DNA from: Lewinellaceae bacterium
GTDB lineage: Bacteria > Bacteroidota > Bacteroidia > Chitinophagales > Saprospiraceae
Length of the DNA stretch: 64,000 nt
Direction: 5' to 3'
NCBI GenBank assembly: GCA_024644235.1
Contig: JAHELJ010000004.1
Span: 62,001 to 126,000 of the forward strand
Part shown: positions 1 through 10,191 of the stretch, one piece after another
Numbering within the stretch: position 1 is the first letter of the stretch
Layout of the letters: each line of letters opens with the position of its first letter
Translations under genes and position numbers: made by a program
Notes under the pieces: model-generated
Database searches by the model: none
Seen by the model: the letters and a program-made list of their open reading frames with translations, nothing else
What the model was told of the DNA's origin: nothing

Positions 1-375
1 GCGCCAATCATGAGGCCGGGACTAATGATAGATTGGGAGGATGGTTCTTTCTTTTGTAGTGGAACAGTTCCTCAAGGTTCTAAGGTTCGTTTTTCCCTTC
101 CACCTGATTTCGATGTCATTGATGAAGTGGTTGATGGCTGCCAAAGACTAAAAGAAGAAGAAATGCCCGAAGCAGATGCCGTTATTTTATTCAGTTGTGC
201 AGGAAGAATACTGGCTTTTGGCCCGTTGATGGGCAAAGAGATAGAAGGTGTCAAGAACGTCTGGAATGCTCCAATAGCTGGGATGTTTTCGAATGCTGAA
301 TTAGGTCGTGCTACCGGAGGCAATCTGGAAATGCACAACTTGACAACTTGTTTTGTAGCCATGAAGGAGAAGTGA
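1..375 (+). CDS. FIST-domain sensor protein, C-terminal part (5' end outside window)
   Basis: The frame is open from base 1, so this is the 3' end of a longer gene; the ATG at 10 is internal. The visible 124 residues match the FIST_C pattern: a hydrophobic strand with FSCAGR, a GPLMGKE loop, the IAGMFSNAELG stretch that corresponds to the usual GFYTxGEI motif, and a closing HNLTTCFVAM strand. FIST proteins are thought to bind small ligands such as amino acids and often sit beside or inside signalling proteins. Here the stop is only 11 bases before a histidine kinase gene, so the two are probably co-transcribed and the FIST protein may feed that kinase. The N-terminal FIST half cannot be seen. 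Confidence 0.8.
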   Translation, partial: APIMRPGLMIDWEDGSFFCSGTVPQGSKVRFSLPPDFDVIDEVVDGCQRLKEEEMPEADAVILFSCAGRILAFGPLMGKEIEGVKNVWNAPIAGMFSNAELGRATGGNLEMHNLTTCFVAMKEK

Positions 376-1996: not shown

Positions 1997-2140
1997 GCAG
2001 ATACGCGCGATTGCACGGATTAACATCAAAACAGACTACTTGAAGGCTTTAGAAATAGGGAGTAGGATTTCTGATAGACGTTGAAGGAAAGCTTTATCTT
2101 CAAAAGAGCAAATGATGTGAAAACTAAAAGGCAAAGTGCC

Positions 2141-5100
2141 ATGAAATCCGTAAAATCCATAGATCGTTTGAAATTCTTGCCAGGTGGTCGAGCGGGGTTG
2201 AAAATCTTGCTCATCACCTTCGTTTGCATTTGTTCTGGAAGTCAGCAGATATGGGCACAGAACATTGAACCGGAATACTTCTCCATTTCCGAGGGAGTAG
2301 CATCACCCACCGTTAATGATGTGATTCAGGACAGTTATGGGATTTTGTGGATTGGAACTTCCAATGGACTGCAAAGATATGACGGCTACAACTTTCAGAC
2401 TTTCAAGAATGTTCCTGGGGTTTCATCCAGTATACAACACAATTTCATTTGGGGTCTTCTTGAGGACGAGAACCATGACATCTGGGTAAGTAACACCTTG
2501 GGCGTTTCCAAATATATCCGCGAGAGCAATGAATTCAAGAACTACGACTTTACAACAATTTTTAATTTTTCATCTACTTCTCAAGTCCAGGGGTTCCGGT
2601 TCTTTATCGATAGCCAACAGCGACTTTGGGCTCCTACAATAACAGTCCAATTGGTACAATATGATTCCATCAATGATACATGGAGGTATGCTAATTATGA
2701 AGTTCCCGATGTTCCGGAGCCCGTTCATACCGGCTTCGCAACCTGTGCGGTTGAAGATCAAAAAGGAGGCATCTGGACGGGATCACAGATTTATGGATTG
2801 ATGCACTTGGCAAAAGGTGATTCCGCCTTTAGGCCAATGTCAGCTGATCGATTTAGAGGGTTGGATTTTACAGGTCAAAATGCCATTACGGGTCTGTTTG
2901 CAGATAGTACAAATACCCTTTGGATAACCACCAAGAATGGGGTCTATAAGTATCATACAGAATCCGGAGAATTCAAAACGTTTAAAGAATACCACGCCGA
3001 ATCTCCGAATGACATCTGGAATAACTGGAACAGTATCATTCAGGACCATGAGGGAAATGTCTGGATAGCCAACAATTACCGGGGGATATTAAAATTCGAA
3101 GGGATCTCAGACCAGTTTGAAGAAATTACTATCGAAGGTGTTATCAGGACGAAAACACGGGGATGGAATCTGACCCTCACCAATATGATGGTAGATCGGA
3201 GCGGCATCTTCTGGATGGGCAGCCGCGAATCCGGACTATTAAAGTATGATCCGGTAAGTAAATCCTTCTCATTTTTTGCGCACGATGATACTGACCCTGG
3301 GGGTCTCAGCTCTGGAGGAGTCTTTGGGTTGCTTGCATCCAAAGTAAATCCCGGTAAGATTTATGTGGGCATGAGGGGCGAGGGGTTGAATATTTATGAT
3401 CCCGCTCTACGGACTTTCGAGAAAGTAAAATTTCTGTCTGTAGATGACTGGTATGGCGGCTCAGTAAGGAGTATTGCAGAGAAGGAGAATGGTTCGCTCT
3501 ATATTGGGACCTGGGGTGACGGGATGATCAGTTTGGATCAAAATTACCAGGAGATAAAGCGCTATAAATACAATCCGGAGAGTCCCCATTCAATTTCTGA
3601 GAACCGGGTGCGTGTGATCAAGCAAGACAATGAAGGTAGATTCTGGGTAGGTACCAATAATGGTTTGAACATATTCGATCCTGAAAAGGAAGAATTCCGG
3701 CTATTGGCCAGTGTCGGTACTAAGGCCTATGCTGATGAACTTACATCAGAGGTAGAGCGATTGATCGGGACTGATCAGGTCATAGGCATGATCGACAGTG
3801 TGGGGGATTATCAGAATCTCTCTGTGACGTTAGAAATTGAATCAACCGGAACCTATTTTGTGGTGTCTGTTGGTGAAGGAGATAGTGACGGTTTATTTGA
3901 TTTTGGCTGGCTAATGAATGCATCGAAAGACACAATCTGGGACTTCACGGATTATGAGGCGTCCTATCATGCCGGGGGTGCTGTCAAAAACCGGATAATC
4001 ATTGAACCTATAGTATTGCAACCAGGTACTTATACTCTACACTACCAGTCAGACGACAGTCACTCGTTTGACAAATGGAATGCGAATCAACCCACTCTAT
4101 CGTCCTTATACGGTATTGCCCTAATTCAACCTGCCGATGGCAATCAATCAAGAGATATTGTGAATCTATTAGGGAAAATCGATGATAAATTTATCCTGAC
4201 AGGCACCAATATTACTGACATTGAAATTGATGGTCAATTTGTTTGGGTAAGTGCAGGTGGGCTCAATAAGGTCGATCCAGAGACAAATACCGTGACCTAC
4301 TACTTGAACGAACCGGATAACATCAATACGCCAGCAAGCAACAATATCCTTGATATTCACAGGGACAAACATGGAATGATTTGGCTGGCAACTAATGCTG
4401 GAATAGATAAAATCAACCCAGCTACCGGGAAGTTTACCCACTATTCTGAAAAAGATGGTTTGCCTACTAATCTCACTCAAGCGGTATTGGAAGGTGACAA
4501 TGGTGAGATGTGGTTCGCTACCCAGAATGGTTTGTCACAGATGATTACAAACGAGGCATTAGGCAAGGTCACGTTCATCAATTACAACTCTACCGATGGG
4601 CTAGGGGGAGAAGCTTTCTTGTACGGGGCGGCAGACAGGAGTCCTGACGGCCGTTTTTATTTTGGAGGGGAGCACGGCCTGACCACTTTTTCTGAGGTAG
4701 AGTCAAACAACACACCTCCCGCACTAATTTTTTCCAATCTCCTTATCTCCAACCAATCCGTTTTAGCCATGGGTAAGGATTCACCGCTTGACAAAAACCT
4801 GCAGGAAACAACAAGCATCACGCTCTCTCATGATCAGAATAATTTGAGCTTTGAGTTTGCCGCATTGCATTACGCCAACCCACAAAAGAACCAATACGCT
4901 CATATACTGAAAGGCTACGACCGGGAATGGACCTACGACAACCGGAATTTTGCCATGTACACCAATCTCGATCCGGGGAAGTACGAATTCTCCATCAGGG
5001 CATCCAATGCCTACGGCATTTGGAACGAAGAAGGCAAATCAATCGAAATCATTATCCATCCTCCTTGGTGGCGAACGACCTTGGCCTACATCGCTTACGC

Positions 5101-6013
5101 CGTGATCCTGGGATTTCTGGTTTTTGGATTTGACCGGTTGATGCGTAGAAATATCAAGCGAAAGGAACGCGAGCGCATGCGTGAAAAAGAATTGGCTCAT
5201 GCCAAAGAAATCGAAAAGGCTTACCATGACCTTAAAACCACTCAGGATCAACTGATCCATTCCGAGAAAATGGCATCCCTGGGTGAACTGACTGCGGGGA
5301 TCGCTCATGAGATCCAAAACCCACTGAATTTCGTCAACAACTTCTCTGATGTAAATGGAGAACTGATTGAAGAGATGCTGGATGAGATCAAAGCCGGTAA
5401 TTTTCAAGAAGTGGAAAGAATTGCAAAGGACATTAAGGAGAATGAAGAGAAGGTTAAACACCATGGACACAGAGCGGATGCAATTGTGAAAAGTATGTTG
5501 ATGCATTCCCGTGCCGCCAGTGGGGAAAGGCAGTCTACCGACATCAATATTTTAGCTGATGAATATTTGCGCCTCGCCTTTCACGGTATGAGGGCGAAGG
5601 ATAAATCCTTTAATGCGTCAGTAAAGACCGATTTCGACGAAACACTAGAAAAGATTGAGATTGTTCCTCAGGATATCGGCAGGGTTATATTGAATTTGAT
5701 CACGAATGCCTTTCATGCTGTAAGCGAGAAAAAAGCCAGGTCGGAAAATGGTTATGCGCCGGAGGTCCTGGTATCCACAAGAAAATCTGCAAACAAACTG
5801 TATATCGCAGTGAGGGATAATGGTACTGGCATCCCCGAAAATATCAAGGATAAGATTTTTCAGCCCTTCTATACCACAAAGCCAAGCGGGCAGGGCACGG
5901 GTCTTGGTCTTTCTCTCAGCTATGATATCGTGAAAGTGCACAATGGGGAATTGAGGGTGGAGACAAAAGAGGGTGAGGGTACTGAGTTTGTGTTGGAGTT
6001 ACCTCTTGTCTGA
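2141..6013 (+). CDS. Propeller-type sensor histidine kinase (reg_prop, Y_Y_Y, TM, HisKA, HATPase) with an inserted domain
   Basis: I start at ATG 2141 because it gives a compact N-terminus with a signal sequence ending near IWAQ; an upstream in-frame TTG at 2081 adds 20 charged residues. The 1290-residue product has periplasmic propeller blades with repeated ILWIGTSNGL-type motifs, a Y_Y_Y domain (about 883-973), one membrane helix (about 980-998), a coiled coil, HisKA with His1056, and a complete ATPase ([23 protein letters not shown]). Classic Bacteroidota hybrid sensors also carry a receiver and AraC domain; this one lacks both, so it must pass phosphate to a separate regulator. About 165 residues (roughly 521-683) interrupt the propeller with a beta-rich domain absent from the two sister propeller kinases here. 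Confidence 0.92.
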   Translation: MKSVKSIDRLKFLPGGRAGLKILLITFVCICSGSQQIWAQNIEPEYFSISEGVASPTVNDVIQDSYGILWIGTSNGLQRYDGYNFQTFKNVPGVSSSIQHNFIWGLLEDENHDIWVSNTLGVSKYIRESNEFKNYDFTTIFNFSSTSQVQGFRFFIDSQQRLWAPTITVQLVQYDSINDTWRYANYEVPDVPEPVHTGFATCAVEDQKGGIWTGSQIYGLMHLAKGDSAFRPMSADRFRGLDFTGQNAITGLFADSTNTLWITTKNGVYKYHTESGEFKTFKEYHAESPNDIWNNWNSIIQDHEGNVWIANNYRGILKFEGISDQFEEITIEGVIRTKTRGWNLTLTNMMVDRSGIFWMGSRESGLLKYDPVSKSFSFFAHDDTDPGGLSSGGVFGLLASKVNPGKIYVGMRGEGLNIYDPALRTFEKVKFLSVDDWYGGSVRSIAEKENGSLYIGTWGDGMISLDQNYQEIKRYKYNPESPHSISENRVRVIKQDNEGRFWVGTNNGLNIFDPEKEEFRLLASVGTKAYADELTSEVERLIGTDQVIGMIDSVGDYQNLSVTLEIESTGTYFVVSVGEGDSDGLFDFGWLMNASKDTIWDFTDYEASYHAGGAVKNRIIIEPIVLQPGTYTLHYQSDDSHSFDKWNANQPTLSSLYGIALIQPADGNQSRDIVNLLGKIDDKFILTGTNITDIEIDGQFVWVSAGGLNKVDPETNTVTYYLNEPDNINTPASNNILDIHRDKHGMIWLATNAGIDKINPATGKFTHYSEKDGLPTNLTQAVLEGDNGEMWFATQNGLSQMITNEALGKVTFINYNSTDGLGGEAFLYGAADRSPDGRFYFGGEHGLTTFSEVESNNTPPALIFSNLLISNQSVLAMGKDSPLDKNLQETTSITLSHDQNNLSFEFAALHYANPQKNQYAHILKGYDREWTYDNRNFAMYTNLDPGKYEFSIRASNAYGIWNEEGKSIEIIIHPPWWRTTLAYIAYAVILGFLVFGFDRLMRRNIKRKERERMREKELAHAKEIEKAYHDLKTTQDQLIHSEKMASLGELTAGIAHEIQNPLNFVNNFSDVNGELIEEMLDEIKAGNFQEVERIAKDIKENEEKVKHHGHRADAIVKSMLMHSRAASGERQSTDINILADEYLRLAFHGMRAKDKSFNASVKTDFDETLEKIEIVPQDIGRVILNLITNAFHAVSEKKARSENGYAPEVLVSTRKSANKLYIAVRDNGTGIPENIKDKIFQPFYTTKPSGQGTGLGLSLSYDIVKVHNGELRVETKEGEGTEFVLELPLV

Positions 6014-6038
6014 TTACACCTGCCTGCCGGCAAGGCAG
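6012..6038. repeat. Extragenic GC-rich palindromic repeat, copy 2
   Basis: A shortened relative of the 1963 element (GATTACACCTGCCTGCCGG, then CAAGGCAG). It starts at the stop codon of the propeller kinase, at the same place relative to the stop as copy 1 after the first kinase. The downstream bases again show spaced GATT units. Confidence 0.75.
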
Positions 6039-6074
6039 AGATTTCACAGATTGTAAGGATTGCATAGATGGCGC

Positions 6075-6157
6075 GTGCCGACGGCACTCCAAAAGTTTTT
6101 GGAAGATTGGGCAGCGGATTGAAATCCGCTGGTGATAAATGAGCAAGCCTACGGCTT
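6075..6157. repeat. REP-like hairpin cluster, copy A (inverted relative to B and C)
   Basis: Three perfect short hairpins follow each other: GTGCC-GAC-GGCAC (6075-6087), AGCGGATT-GA-AATCCGCT (6113-6130) and AAGCC-TAC-GGCTT (6145-6157). Read on the minus strand, the loops GTA and TC match those of copies B and C while the stem bases differ in a paired way. No coding frame covers the stretch. Confidence 0.75.
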
Positions 6158-6247
6158 TGTGATACGATGAGGCAGATTGTAGCTTGCTATTTCATAGTCA
6201 GAGATTAGAATGATTATTTGGTATCAGGACTTCCAAATTAGAAGATC

Positions 6248-6348
6248 AAGAGGCAGAGCCTCGAGATAATATGAGAACCATGGATTTCAATCCATGGTGT
6301 CAAAAGACCCTGAAGAGATGGAGATCCGTAGGATCGCTCTATAATTGT
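6248..6348. repeat. REP-like hairpin cluster, copy B
   Basis: A 101-bp unit repeated directly at 6467. It holds three hairpins: GAGGC-AGA-GCCTC (6250-6262), ACCATGGATT-TC-AATCCATGGT (6277-6298) and GATCC-GTA-GGATC (6323-6335). It sits in the 623-bp gap between the second and third kinase genes, in which I see no gene. Confidence 0.8.
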
Positions 6349-6416
6349 TGCAACAAAAGCGAAGAGCCTATTAAGATCGAGGGGACTCAAGAGATCCGTG
6401 AAATCCCATAATCCGT

Positions 6417-6450
6417 GTCATCCTTGCCTGGCCGCCAGGCAGGTGTGATC
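6417..6450. repeat. Extragenic GC-rich palindromic repeat, copy 3 (inverted)
   Basis: The reverse complement of this 34-bp stretch equals the 1963-1996 element except for one base in the palindrome core. It lies between hairpin clusters B and C. Confidence 0.8.
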
Positions 6451-6466
6451 CTGACAAATAATAAGC

Positions 6467-6570
6467 AAGAGGCAGAGCCTCGAGATAATATGGAAACCAT
6501 GGATTTCAATCCAAGGTGTTTGAGAGACTTCAAGAGATGAAAAGCCGTAGGCTTGCTCTATGATGATTGT
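6467..6570. repeat. REP-like hairpin cluster, copy C
   Basis: A direct repeat of copy B. The hairpin GAGGC-AGA-GCCTC (6469-6481) is identical. The middle one (6496-6517) has one broken pair. The third (6542-6554) is AAGCC-GTA-GGCTT, where copy B has GATCC-GTA-GGATC: two stem positions changed on both sides, so pairing is kept. Confidence 0.8.
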
Positions 6571-6636
6571 ACAGGGACCGCCTCCAAAATCAAGGGAGAA
6601 TAAATTCCAAAAGCTCCGTATTTTGTAGGTAACCGG

Positions 6637-9600
6637 ATGAAAACACTCAGATTCCTCATAGTAAGCCTCTGTTGCCTGGCACCCTCGGTAGTTTTAGCTC
6701 AGATTGTTACACCTGAAGAAGATCTGGACTATGACATAACCGAAGTCACCTTACCTGGTGGGCGCCTGGGTAATAATGTCAATGCTATTGTTGAAGGACC
6801 CTTTGGATTTTTATGGTTTGGGTCGCACGGAGGCCTGCACCGTTATGATGGATATGAATTCATCACTTACAAAAATTTGCCTGGAGACACGGTAGAGCCT
6901 ACTCGATCCCTGACGTTTCCCTACATCGAGAATCTATATTGGGACAGTCAGAATATTCTTTGGGTTACCACCTATGGTGGTGGACTGTTTCGATTTGATC
7001 CATCCACCGAGCAATTTAAGCATTACAAGTTTGATCCCGAAAATGAGCAGAGCATCAGTCACGCCCGGGTCATGTGTGCTGGAGAAGATAGACATAGCGA
7101 CCTTTGGTTTGGCACGAGCAGGGGCTTGAATAAGTTTGACCGTGAAACCGAAACATTCATACGTTATTATCCATTCGATCCTGATCCGGAATCCCCACAC
7201 AATGATATTCGAAACCTGTACGTAGATAAATCCGGAAAATTCTGGATCGCTGCCGGAGAATCTTTTTTCTCGTCGAATACAGGTGGTTTGGCGAGTTATG
7301 ACGATCACACCGACTCATTCCGAATCTACGAATACCCCAAGCGCGAAGCATTTTCGAGCGACTGGGTGGCAACCAGAGCTCTTCTGGAAGATGGTAGTGG
7401 TAATTTTTGGGTGGGAAATTCATTTGGCCTTGAAAAGCTAGATAGAAAATCAGGAATTTTTACCAAGATGGTGTATGCTGATAATCAGCCTCATGCCCCC
7501 GGTGAAGGCCAGCGTTCCGATCCAGCTGTCTTTGATATACTAGAAGATCACAATGGTGGTCTATGGATAAGCACCATCGGAAATCCATCTTACCCTTCAC
7601 ACTTGTTGCGTTATGATCCTCAAACCTCGCAAATCGACCACTTTCCCTTGACTACTTCTGCCTGGGATATACACGAGTCTTCTGATGGTACTATGTGGGT
7701 TGCCGGAGCCAGTATGAGTGGTCGGGTATTTAAGATAACGCCTAAACCAACCAGCTATGACTTGCAACGTGGAGGCTTTTATGAAGAGGCCTTCGAAAAG
7801 ACAAACCTGCATGCAAACCTATATCGAAACGAAGCAGATGTTCTAGCCAGTGGTAGTGGTCCGATCAATATGACCATTGACCCTTCGTCAGGTCATATTT
7901 GGGGAACTCATGTTTTCTGGCAGACAAGAGGAGCTTCTTTAGTGAACGCTCACGCAATACTATCCAGATTCCAGCCAAACACCGATGAAATAACGTTTTA
8001 TCATCTTCCACAGGTAAAATTGAATAGCAGTACAAGCTTTAGACGAGCATGGGGGGTGGGAAAGATTGCAGTGGGGAAGGATGGAAAACTTTGGGCGAGT
8101 TTTCCTTCAGATTCCGTAGGTGTCATTAGTTTCGATCCTTACACTGAGACCCTCCAACAATATGTTCATGATCCAACAGATTCCAATAGTATTTCATCAA
8201 ACTACATTGTCGACCTCCATGTGGATGCATTGAATAACCTTTGGATAGCGACAGCTGAAGAGGGACTTAATCAATTAATTACGGAGACCGGGAAAATTAA
8301 CAGATACAATTATAACTCACCATGGAATCCTGGTCTCAACAATTTTCCAATTGCCATCGAGGGGGATGAGACTGGAACCATTTGGGTGGGTGGACATCTT
8401 TGGCGTGCTGATACTACACTCTTACTTAAAATAAATCCCCAGACGGCTTCTATAGAGGAAATCCCTTTTTTGCCTCCGAAATCCAGTCCGATAACTGATA
8501 TTGCAGCGACGGGAGATGGAAAATATCTGGGCTTCATCCTATACGAGTCCGGGATTGGTATTTTAAATCTAGAAACAAAGGAGATCCAGTTTCTTAACTC
8601 GCAGTCCGGCTTCGAATTTGACTATGTCATGAGTATCCTGGCTGATGAGGATAATTTCTGGATTGGAGACCGGGATCGAGGAACATTCATCCGCCTAAGC
8701 CCTAGTGGGGAGCGATTCCTATTTCAAAATTCCGTTTTGGTAGGTTCCTGGGCGAGGAGAGCACTGAAAGGTCCTGATGGACGGCTGTACTTTCAGAATG
8801 GTGAAGGCTGGGTTGAAATCAATCCTAAGGAGATTCAAGCCATCGAAGACAGAGATACTGGAAGTCTTCAACTAGTCGATTTATATGTATTAGGGGAAAA
8901 ACAAATTCCTGGGCCTAAGGAATTGTTGAACAAACCCATTTGGATGGTGGATCAGCTGCGATTACCTTATGATGCAGAAACATTTGCATTTCGTTTTAGC
9001 GACTTTAACTACCGTAATTCGCGACCAGCTTACCGATATCGACTCTATCCATATGAATCAATATGGAGGAACACGGATATTGCACCTGTGGCTAACTATT
9101 ACAAAGTGCCAACAGGTTCCTATAGATTTCAAGTCCAGTCTGCAACTCAGAATAGCAACTTGAGCTATCAGGATATTGATTTACCTGTGAACAAAATGCC
9201 CCCATGGTGGGCCACCTGGTGGGCATATGCTCTATATGCCGGAATCATCGCCTTTCTGGGATGGCGGCTGCACCTCTTTCAAAAGGCCAGAGTCATCCGG
9301 GCAGAGCGAGAACGGACCAGGGAAAAAGAACTGGAGCAAGCCAGAGAAATCGAAAAAGCATACAAGGAACTCGGAGTAGCACATGAAAACCTAAAGGCAA
9401 CTCAGTCACAGCTCATTCACGCCGAAAAAATGGCTTCGCTTGGCGAATTGACCGCCGGCATCGCTCATGAGATTCAGAATCCGTTGAATTTTGTCAATAA
9501 TTTTTCTGAAGTCAGCACCGAATTACTGGATGATATCGAAGAAGAATTTAGCAAAGGAGATCATCAAGCAGCTGTCGAGCTCGGAAAAAATCTCAGGCAG

Positions 9601-10191
9601 AATCTGGAAAAAATTACCCATCACGGTGAACGGGCATCTGCTATTGTGAAATCGATGCTCCTCCATTCGCGAGCAGATAGCGGAAAAAGGGAAATGGTAG
9701 ACATCAATGCCCTGACGGATGAATATCTCAGACTTGCCTATCACGGCATGCGTGCCAAAGACAAGTCTTTTAATGTTTCGATGAAAACCGACTTTGATAC
9801 ATCTCTAGAGAAAATAGAGATGGTGCCGCAGGAGATTGGCAGGGTCTTGTTGAATCTGATAACGAATGCTTTCTATGCAGTGGCTGACAAAAAGAAAAAA
9901 TCAGATAATGGATTTTCTCCTGAGGTATCGGTGTCGACTAAAAGCAAGAAAAACCTGGTAGAGATATCTGTGAAGGACAATGGTAGTGGTATCCCTCAGG
10001 AACTGGTCGATAAGATATTCCAACCATTTTTTACCACTAAGCCTACAGGCGAAGGAACCGGATTGGGACTCTCTCTTAGCTATGATATTTTAAAAGCACA
10101 TGGTGGGGATATAAAAATTAAAACCGAAAACGGCGAGGGAACAGAAATGCTGGTGTTGTTACCATATGATAATAATGATTCCAAAGACTGA
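6637..10191 (+). CDS. Propeller-type sensor histidine kinase (reg_prop, Y_Y_Y, TM, HisKA, HATPase)
   Basis: The 1184-residue protein starts with a Sec signal peptide (cut near VVLAQ). It continues with a periplasmic beta-propeller of reg_prop blades (motifs such as FGFLWFGSHGGLHRYDG), a Y_Y_Y domain (about 781-850), one membrane helix after PPWWATWW (about 856-878), a charged coiled coil, HisKA with His944, and an ATPase with [15 protein letters not shown] and GTGLGLSL. There is no receiver or output domain. The ligand is unknown; related propeller sensors in gut Bacteroides detect oligosaccharides. Its core is closest to the kinase at 12731, with which it also shares the stretch after the membrane helix (GWR-HLFQKARV). 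The next kinase begins 8 bases after its stop, so both are probably in one transcript. Confidence 0.93.
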   Translation: MKTLRFLIVSLCCLAPSVVLAQIVTPEEDLDYDITEVTLPGGRLGNNVNAIVEGPFGFLWFGSHGGLHRYDGYEFITYKNLPGDTVEPTRSLTFPYIENLYWDSQNILWVTTYGGGLFRFDPSTEQFKHYKFDPENEQSISHARVMCAGEDRHSDLWFGTSRGLNKFDRETETFIRYYPFDPDPESPHNDIRNLYVDKSGKFWIAAGESFFSSNTGGLASYDDHTDSFRIYEYPKREAFSSDWVATRALLEDGSGNFWVGNSFGLEKLDRKSGIFTKMVYADNQPHAPGEGQRSDPAVFDILEDHNGGLWISTIGNPSYPSHLLRYDPQTSQIDHFPLTTSAWDIHESSDGTMWVAGASMSGRVFKITPKPTSYDLQRGGFYEEAFEKTNLHANLYRNEADVLASGSGPINMTIDPSSGHIWGTHVFWQTRGASLVNAHAILSRFQPNTDEITFYHLPQVKLNSSTSFRRAWGVGKIAVGKDGKLWASFPSDSVGVISFDPYTETLQQYVHDPTDSNSISSNYIVDLHVDALNNLWIATAEEGLNQLITETGKINRYNYNSPWNPGLNNFPIAIEGDETGTIWVGGHLWRADTTLLLKINPQTASIEEIPFLPPKSSPITDIAATGDGKYLGFILYESGIGILNLETKEIQFLNSQSGFEFDYVMSILADEDNFWIGDRDRGTFIRLSPSGERFLFQNSVLVGSWARRALKGPDGRLYFQNGEGWVEINPKEIQAIEDRDTGSLQLVDLYVLGEKQIPGPKELLNKPIWMVDQLRLPYDAETFAFRFSDFNYRNSRPAYRYRLYPYESIWRNTDIAPVANYYKVPTGSYRFQVQSATQNSNLSYQDIDLPVNKMPPWWATWWAYALYAGIIAFLGWRLHLFQKARVIRAERERTREKELEQAREIEKAYKELGVAHENLKATQSQLIHAEKMASLGELTAGIAHEIQNPLNFVNNFSEVSTELLDDIEEEFSKGDHQAAVELGKNLRQNLEKITHHGERASAIVKSMLLHSRADSGKREMVDINALTDEYLRLAYHGMRAKDKSFNVSMKTDFDTSLEKIEMVPQEIGRVLLNLITNAFYAVADKKKKSDNGFSPEVSVSTKSKKNLVEISVKDNGSGIPQELVDKIFQPFFTTKPTGEGTGLGLSLSYDILKAHGGDIKIKTENGEGTEMLVLLPYDNNDSKD

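Follow-up and report, generated by a model that had tools for sequence, protein, structure and literature searches.

The intergenic region at positions 6,075–6,570 of a 64,000-nucleotide stretch of the genome of a Lewinellaceae bacterium (the window; C24:62001–126000, C24 being the contig that carries both the window and the array described below) contains three clusters of short hairpins. The original prediction, made from the letters of the stretch alone, had explained them by selection for a folded form of DNA or RNA, as in repetitive extragenic palindromes (REPs) moved by Y1 transposases of the REP-associated tyrosine transposase (RAYT) type. We consider it probable (about 0.8) that the hairpins are substrates of an adjacent Y1 enzyme, comparable to REPs and bacterial interspersed mosaic elements (BIMEs), and that they belong to a REPtron-like locus, the enzyme of which is an IS200-like class-1 protein and not a RAYT. 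That the enzyme binds, cleaves and mobilizes them is what we infer from the observations below. What is new here is that a Y1 gene lies next to the window and could be assigned to a class, that such arrays recur beside related genes (mostly in Bacteroidota) with drifting stems, and that they are dispersed in some relatives.

All six hairpins quoted in the original prediction were found where it had placed them, and the three clusters proved to be three composite units of approximately 100 nucleotides (nt), each with three hairpins, located between two genes for propeller histidine kinases (Table 1). The region 6075–6570 has 12 perfect hairpins (stem of at least 5, loop of 2–4) with 74 base pairs. 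Shuffled sequences averaged 1.5 hairpins and 8.2 pairs, and neither observed value was reached in any of 500 shuffles, so that the hairpin content clearly exceeds chance. When the window was scored in overlapping 496-nt segments (step 248 nt), the two best segments, with 58 and 48 pairs against a segment mean of 7.5, were both in this region. Folding of the single DNA strand 6060–6580 gave z = -7.35, and none of 100 shuffles was equally stable. Units A4 and A5 are direct copies with 81% identity across 104 nt. Both consist of a short hairpin GAGGC-AGA-GCCTC (two identical copies, at 6250 and 6469, missing from the list of the original prediction), then a long one (..GGATT-TC-AATCC..) and finally a short one whose loop is GTA; the related unit B6 has the opposite orientation. 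The identity between A4 and A5 indicates that some hairpins have merely been copied, as would be expected if the palindromes had arisen by chance or through mere local duplication in tandem, folding not being under selection. The shuffle controls and the covariation at unselected anchors in other loci (see below) refute this explanation, to which we attach practically no weight.

The Y1 transposase gene that the original prediction had recommended looking for lies 2 kb outside the window, and hence out of reach of that prediction, at C24:59939–60400 (2.06–1.60 kb to its left), and includes the only Y1_Tnp match in the genome (C24:59951–60295, 5.2e-28). Around it we found an array of 11 units (delimited by eye), five of type A and six inverted units of type B, in the order B1-B2-A1-[Y1]-B3-B4-A2-B5-A3-[FIST gene, two kinase-like genes]-B6-A4-A5, with the array core at C24:59.5–61.1 kb. 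The last hairpin of A1 stops 29 nt 5' of the Y1 start codon. The 104-nt unit, used as a query against the 5.63-Mb genome, gave five matches at E <= 0.001, all within C24:59820–68564. The locus is arranged like a REPtron, with repeats of more than one copy flanking its Y1 gene, and its palindromes occur as inverted pairs, as in REPs, BIMEs and REP doublets forming hairpins (REPINs): B-A pairs in this genome and pairs approximately 170 nt apart in the relative G124.

Related Y1 genes were collected from two sources. A Y1 match at E <= 1e-15 was present in 166 of 298 genomes of the same family (this one included); together with our gene, we used 29 family loci (the best among these 166 genomes) and the best 80 of 90 confirmed loci from named genomes, which had been seeded by six short peptides of our protein, including QNQEEHHK. 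The resulting 110 loci, some of them labelled as other phyla, represent the nearest relatives of our gene and do not sample the subclass at random, and the two sources possibly overlap. In 83 of the 110 (own locus included), at least three hairpins were present within 400 nt of the gene, and their total was reached by none of 30 shuffles. The density of short hairpins was 6.4 per kb within 200 nt of the Y1 gene and 0.21 per kb at 2–3 kb, the corresponding values for non-coding DNA only being 6.7 per kb below 400 nt and 0.87 per kb from 1 kb onwards. The recurring design consists of 5-bp stems and 3-nt loops, mostly inverted across the gene, with stems that are genome-specific yet paired. A short hairpin was found within 150 nt upstream at 65 of the loci, downstream at 72 and on both sides at 51, as compared with 26 of 802 background segments. 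The loops nearest upstream were GTA in 22, GAA in 9, GGA in 6, ATA in 5, AGC in 4 and AGA in 3 cases, and those nearest downstream TAC in 24, TTC in 14, TCT in 6, TAT in 5, TCC in 4 and GCT in 3. Thus, since the downstream loops are the reverse complements of the upstream ones, the hairpins are mostly oppositely oriented across the gene.

The stems of corresponding hairpins vary within the array. The GTA hairpin occurs with the stems GAACC/GGTTC, GATCC/GGATC and AAGCC/GGCTT, the long A hairpin with ACCACGG/CCGTGGT and ACCATGG/CCATGGT, and the third B hairpin with GTACC/GGTAC and GTGCC/GGCAC as well as an intermediate G.T form, GTGCC/GGTAC. For an unselected comparison across loci, all CGTAG sites no more than 500 nt from a Y1 gene served as near anchors (238 anchors in 77 loci), the far set being located at 1.2–3 kb (174 anchors in 78 loci). 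The results showed that positions 2–5 were complementary in 81, 76, 76 and 76% of the near anchors, with a fall to 24% at position 6, whereas the values for the far anchors were 30, 35, 35 and 26%. All four pairs were complete in 58.8% of the near and 5.2% of the far anchors, and at stem positions 3 and 4 each of the four Watson-Crick pairs was used at least six times among 175 distinct near anchors. The signals from other loops were weaker but still distinct: complete sets of four outer pairs were more frequent near than far from the gene for the anchors CATAG (17.9 vs 1.1%), CATCG (12.3 vs 0.7%), CAGAG (23.4 vs 0.3%) and CGAAG (16.2 vs 1.1%), as compared with the arbitrary control anchors CATTG (1.1 vs 0%) and CTTTG (4.0 vs 0.5%). 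Selection for a folded form, as originally proposed, is therefore strongly supported.

The 88 distinct fully paired hairpins (from 55 loci) carried an A directly 5' of the stem in 80% and a G directly 3' of it in 78% of cases; the 3' tail past this G is close to GACATATTTnTA in relatives and reads GCTCTATaAT in our genome. Stem similarity tracked the similarity of the Y1 proteins (Mantel r 0.32 for 87 loci, 0 of 999 permutations): the mean stem difference was 0.43 of 5 positions at protein distances below 0.2, 1.4 at 0.2–0.4 and 2.4–2.5 beyond. Judged from sequence, exactly five drifting pairs in combination with a fixed loop, a mismatched foot and a tail look like a protein-binding fold that is read through its loop and shape. 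In relatives, the last letters of the tail are often GTA[AG], which stands at the foot of a longer hairpin that comes next, and GTA[AG] was located no more than 2 nt from the foot in 45 of the 132 longer hairpins of all sampled loci (mean of 7 and maximum of 15 in 200 shuffles). The composite unit may thus be an IS200-like end combined with a classical REP.

The genome-wide covariance search that the original prediction had suggested was performed with R1, a model made from 44 hairpins of Y1-gene neighbourhoods, to which nine of the 11 genomes searched (not G173 and G300) had contributed. Since at most 150 candidates per genome were scored, its counts in relatives are lower bounds. In six genomes the copies were dispersed, with at least 53 matches in G113, 118 in G124, 59 in G018, 89 in Arcicella aurantiaca, and 109 and 115 in two Dyadobacter genomes; the other genomes had at least 11, 15, 8 and 10, and our own had 7. 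The regions taken from G124 and G298 were the best-scoring matches and not a random choice. All 18 other G124 loci taken matched the unit of locus L148 over 205–254 bp, partly also in reverse because the unit is palindromic, and flank identity was at background past some 40–60 nt. The outer hairpins of these units, with the stems ATCGC/GCGAT or GTCGC/GCGAC, were fully paired in 39 of 41 cases and had one G.T pair each in the other two; 35 of 40 were located outside open frames of 100 residues or more. Since the units are spread over many unrelated sites, they have been moved or copied in these relatives.

Pairing was also maintained at many of the dispersed CGTAG anchors. In Arcicella, 36 of 76 were fully paired, 5 had a G.T pair, 8 one mismatch and 27 two or more, and the stems included AAGCC/GGCTT (13), GAGCC/GGCTC (12), GTTCC/GGAAC (8) and GAACC/GGTTC (3). 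The corresponding numbers were 16, 2, 2 and 6 for the 26 Dyadobacter anchors and 39, 40, 3 and 10 for the 92 anchors of G124. The 40 G.T anchors of G124 mostly represent one hairpin, GTGCC-GTA-GGTAC, in which the G.T was kept in 38 copies (L146–L164), so that this non-Watson-Crick pair may itself be maintained. In the same loci, many units were seen by eye to carry a GATYRGTTCT-like motif at either end in inverted orientation, some 40–75 nt beyond the outer hairpins; it seems to differ between subfamilies and is a possible true end of the element. The Dyadobacter genomes contain dense arrays, with 17 R1 matches in approximately 1.3 kb (L209:1489–2827) and 19 in approximately 1.5 kb (L210:1401–2854), and with periods near 75 and 53 nt.

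Several observations weigh against the proposal that the hairpins are mobile substrates of the Y1 enzyme. The many dispersed copies typical of REPs, BIMEs and REPINs were found in relatives such as G124 and G298–G300 but not in the genome under study: the covariance search recovered the array, with all seven R1 matches at E <= 0.1 confined to 8.8 kb (C24:59741–68572), and found nothing elsewhere at that threshold, the next match having an E-value of 3.9. The draft assembly consists of 249 contigs, with a completeness of 97.3%, and copies in gaps would escape. A pattern search with three mismatches gave 27 matches in it and 38 for the reversed control, and says nothing beyond the array. Since nine of the 11 genomes had contributed hairpins from beside their Y1 genes to R1, matches beside those genes are there by construction, which does not apply to the dispersed ones. 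R1 was also positive in at least 6 of 20 genomes that had no Y1 match at E <= 1e-15 (at least 16 matches, 10 of them in one genome), as compared with at least 14 of the 20 Y1-positive genomes (at least 110 matches; Fisher p 0.026, Mann-Whitney p 0.0026). Both control sets were taken from the head of the genome list of the Y1 search, used genomes being left out; one member of the Y1 set, G035, had donated to R1, and without it the values are at least 13 of 19 genomes and at least 95 matches.

Further points of this kind come from the hairpins themselves. At 27 of the 110 Y1 loci the hairpin array was lacking by the above measure. The expected orientation was seen for 30 upstream and 32 downstream hairpins among the 88 paired GTA hairpins, the remaining 26 (9 upstream, 17 downstream) being wrongly oriented, and the link between stem and protein distance plateaus past a protein distance of 0.4. 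The claim that paired changes keep the stems was borne out by 24 of the 33 hairpins in the 11 units, which are fully paired, and by one more with a G.T pair, but eight are broken: six in the decayed units B1 and B3 and one in A2, all outside the window, and one within it (6496–6517). Uncompensated stem changes, which the original prediction had named as evidence against itself, also occur in at least six Arcicella copies, where a mismatched stem, AAACC/GCTTT, is dispersed. Since they are outweighed by the covariation across loci, its interpretation is still supported.

A comparison of two 4-kb regions of G124 with four congeners did not reveal a clean empty site. The first region had no syntenic counterpart in any of the four, and the second was matched in one congener over the first kilobase only, the match stopping about 1 kb before the unit. 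At one site in one comparison, Dyadobacter frigoris has 180 nt where Dyadobacter sp. CY356 has 20 nt, with the adjoining half unit kept; this is a gain or loss of a half unit and not a clean empty site.

The possibility exists that the hairpins act as RNA, i.e. as terminators, processing sites or stabilizers of mRNA between the kinase genes, and that the Y1 link is only their mode of spread. The units are intergenic, and three terminator-like sites were present in the region as against 0.8 in shuffles, but all of these are on the minus strand and none on the strand of the kinase genes. G.T pairs, including the one kept in 38 copies of the G124 hairpin, would suit an RNA, but they are tolerated in DNA as well. 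No Rfam family was found in 5900–6700, where the best matches (E 0.62 and 0.77) fell far short of the gathering scores. With inverted pairs either strand would carry a unit, and the enrichment of hairpins declines with distance from the Y1 gene within non-coding DNA too. Secondary roles of this kind are described for established REPs in parts of two publications (PMC8266576; PMC6006769). Taken as the main explanation, a function in RNA seems unlikely to us. In four related loci, the sole Rfam match at gathering level was Flavo-1 RNA (RF01705), which differs in sequence from and is unrelated to the hairpins; it was located at L095:5051–5126 (-), 1.6 kb past the Y1 gene of Flavobacterium muglaense.

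The Y1 gene is intact and encodes 153 residues, with DHVH at 54–57, WQ at 95–96, a YIQNQEEHH motif starting at Tyr115, and a conserved C-terminal block. The protein has the Y1_Tnp HUH fold of the IS200/IS605 group (99.8 bits with PF01797), and it scored 77.6 with the NCBIfam model for IS200/IS605 transposases (cut-off 55) and 33.7 with that for REP-associated transposases, REP_Tyr_transpos (cut-off 80). The closest matches of its predicted structure (pLDDT 89) were TnpA proteins of the IS608/ISDra2/IS200 type (E from 1e-8, Z about 12), followed by the Escherichia coli REP transposase 4er8 (E 7e-6, Z 10.2, rmsd 3.6, 125 aligned residues). By its motifs, the enzyme fits TnpA-Y1 subclass 1.2 of the IS200-like class 1, for which the relevant part of the survey by Quentin et al. 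(2018; PMC6006769) gives DH[IV]H, WQ and Y---Q--HH in a protein of about 150 residues (about 148 expected), low copy number and occurrence in Bacteroidetes or Cyanobacteria; our gene is a single copy, and its nearest named relatives are from Bacteroidota. A strict RAYT (TnpA-REP, class 2) is ruled out by Y---Q--HH in place of Y---NP and by the score of 33.7. The GT[AG]G foot of class 2 was seen by eye in none of the three units of the window; beyond the window, the long hairpin of two B units has GTAAG at its foot. Thus, the idea of REP elements moved by a Y1 enzyme is upheld by a Y1 gene inside the array, but the term RAYT applies by functional analogy only, since the tyrosine motif is not Y---NP, and this genome shows no dispersal.

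The IS200/IS605 score above the cut-off and the IS608/ISDra2-type structural neighbours would also be expected if the array had been left behind by an ordinary IS200/IS605 insertion sequence, in which case the hairpins would represent the ends of that element and local duplicates thereof. Such an element would be found as several near-identical copies bearing the gene, and only one was present in the genome; according to PMC6006769, members of subclass 1.2 average 1.7 copies per genome and share 36% mutual identity, as compared with 99.4% for true IS200. The hairpins are, moreover, mainly inverted across the gene, arrayed, and dispersed without the gene in relatives. We regard a remnant of this type as distinctly improbable, more so than a function in RNA.

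If the hairpins are substrates of the Y1 enzyme, they would fold when the region is single-stranded, e.g. on the lagging-strand template. By analogy with IS608 and the REP transposases, in which an HUH enzyme acts on a folded single strand with the tyrosine attacking nearby, the enzyme would bind the short hairpin through its loop and stem shape, not its stem sequence, and Tyr115 would cut near the conserved 3' tail, which extends up to 13 nt past the stem and is the best candidate for a cut or guide sequence. The units could thereby be moved or multiplied. In this genome the activity would so far have given rise to local copies only, or it is old and fading, as the decay of two of the 11 units would suggest.

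Table 1. Hairpin units and neighbouring genes in the window. Unit limits were drawn by eye; R1 matches are given in contig coordinates.
Feature	Position	Strand	R1 match
Unit B6 (inverted)	6068..6175	-	C24:68130-68162 (-), E 0.07
B6 hairpin GTGCC-GAC-GGCAC	6075-6087		
B6 hairpin CAGCGGATT-GA-AATCCGCTG (of which the original prediction quoted AGCGGATT-GA-AATCCGCT)	6112-6131		
B6 hairpin AAGCC-TAC-GGCTT	6145-6157		
Unit A4	6242..6352	+	C24:68318-68353, E 8.2e-5
A4 hairpin GAGGC-AGA-GCCTC	6250-6262		
A4 hairpin ACCATGGATT-TC-AATCCATGGT	6277-6298		
A4 hairpin GATCC-GTA-GGATC, then GCTCTATAAT	6323-6335		
Unit A5	6461..6572	+	C24:68537-68572, E 0.028
A5 hairpin GAGGC-AGA-GCCTC	6469-6481		
A5 long hairpin, one mismatch	6496-6517		
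A5 hairpin AAGCC-GTA-GGCTT, then GCTCTATGAT	6542-6554		
Upstream neighbour: propeller (Reg_prop, Y_Y_Y) histidine kinase gene	2081..6013	+	
Downstream neighbour: propeller histidine kinase gene	6637..10191	+	
FIST-domain gene, 3' part, between array core and window units	1..375	+	

Two further features were noted in the surroundings. A second inverted repeat, unrelated to the units, is present at 6012–6052 and 6410–6450 (41 nt, 80% complementary) and contains a GCCTGCCGGCAGGC-like palindrome; this pattern, with up to two mismatches, gave six palindromic sites genome-wide and the reversed pattern none. To the left of the Y1 gene lies an open frame of 3821 residues (L002:13–11478) with many repeats around 'RFLDLQKAEAQAREAQIEAALERVR' and a histidine-kinase-like end part.

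The enzyme resembles TnpA-Y1 subclass 1.2 in all the properties listed above, and the difference is in the DNA: the portion of PMC6006769 that treats the subclass records it without REP sequences, whereas arrays at 83 of the 110 sampled genes now provide it with a likely DNA partner. According to the same source, the automatic REP search of that survey required GTAG or GTGG at the foot, a stem of at least 7 pairs and a GC-rich base; the short hairpins would fail this rule, which may explain why they were missed there. We found no literature link of such hairpins to subclass 1.2 in titles and abstract openings, preprints and most subscription papers being outside the coverage. GTAG/CGTC repeats, described in part of PMC3733652 for taxa including Bacteroidetes, are palindromes with a CGTC tag at one end.

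We tentatively suggest, at somewhat less than even odds, that subclass 1.2 enzymes of Bacteroidota run a REPIN system of their own. Its two-part unit would consist of a 5-bp hairpin read by loop and tail, like an IS200 end, and a longer hairpin with a GTA[AG] foot in many relatives; stems would drift since only their shape is read, and the system would be either an intermediate between IS200/IS605 and RAYT/REP or a second, independent taming of an IS200 enzyme. The arrays bear on how insertion-sequence enzymes become resident genes of low copy number that sustain populations of short repeats, and their naturally swapped stems lend themselves directly to testing which features the enzyme recognizes.

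With IS200/IS605 elements (subclass 1.1; IS608, ISDra2), the locus appears from sequence to share the fold, the catalytic residues and the recognition of subterminal hairpins, and it differs in having a single gene copy and hairpin arrays mainly inverted about the gene. With the REPtrons of class 2, as far as these are covered by the parts of PMC6006769 and PMC8266576 used here, it shares a low-copy Y1 gene, flanking short palindromes and inverted pairs, with copies that are dispersed in some genomes and near the gene in others, as in the REPtrons of Marinomonas. It has Y---Q--HH where REPtrons have Y---NP, and its short hairpin lacks the GTAG foot, the conserved parts being the loop, the A.G foot and the 3' tail. 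In the Marinomonas REP-Mb, as reported in part of PMC8266576, the stem is 5 bp long, the loop positions do not tolerate change and a stem swap has only a moderate effect; this is the behaviour to be expected where, as observed here, loops are fixed and stems vary.
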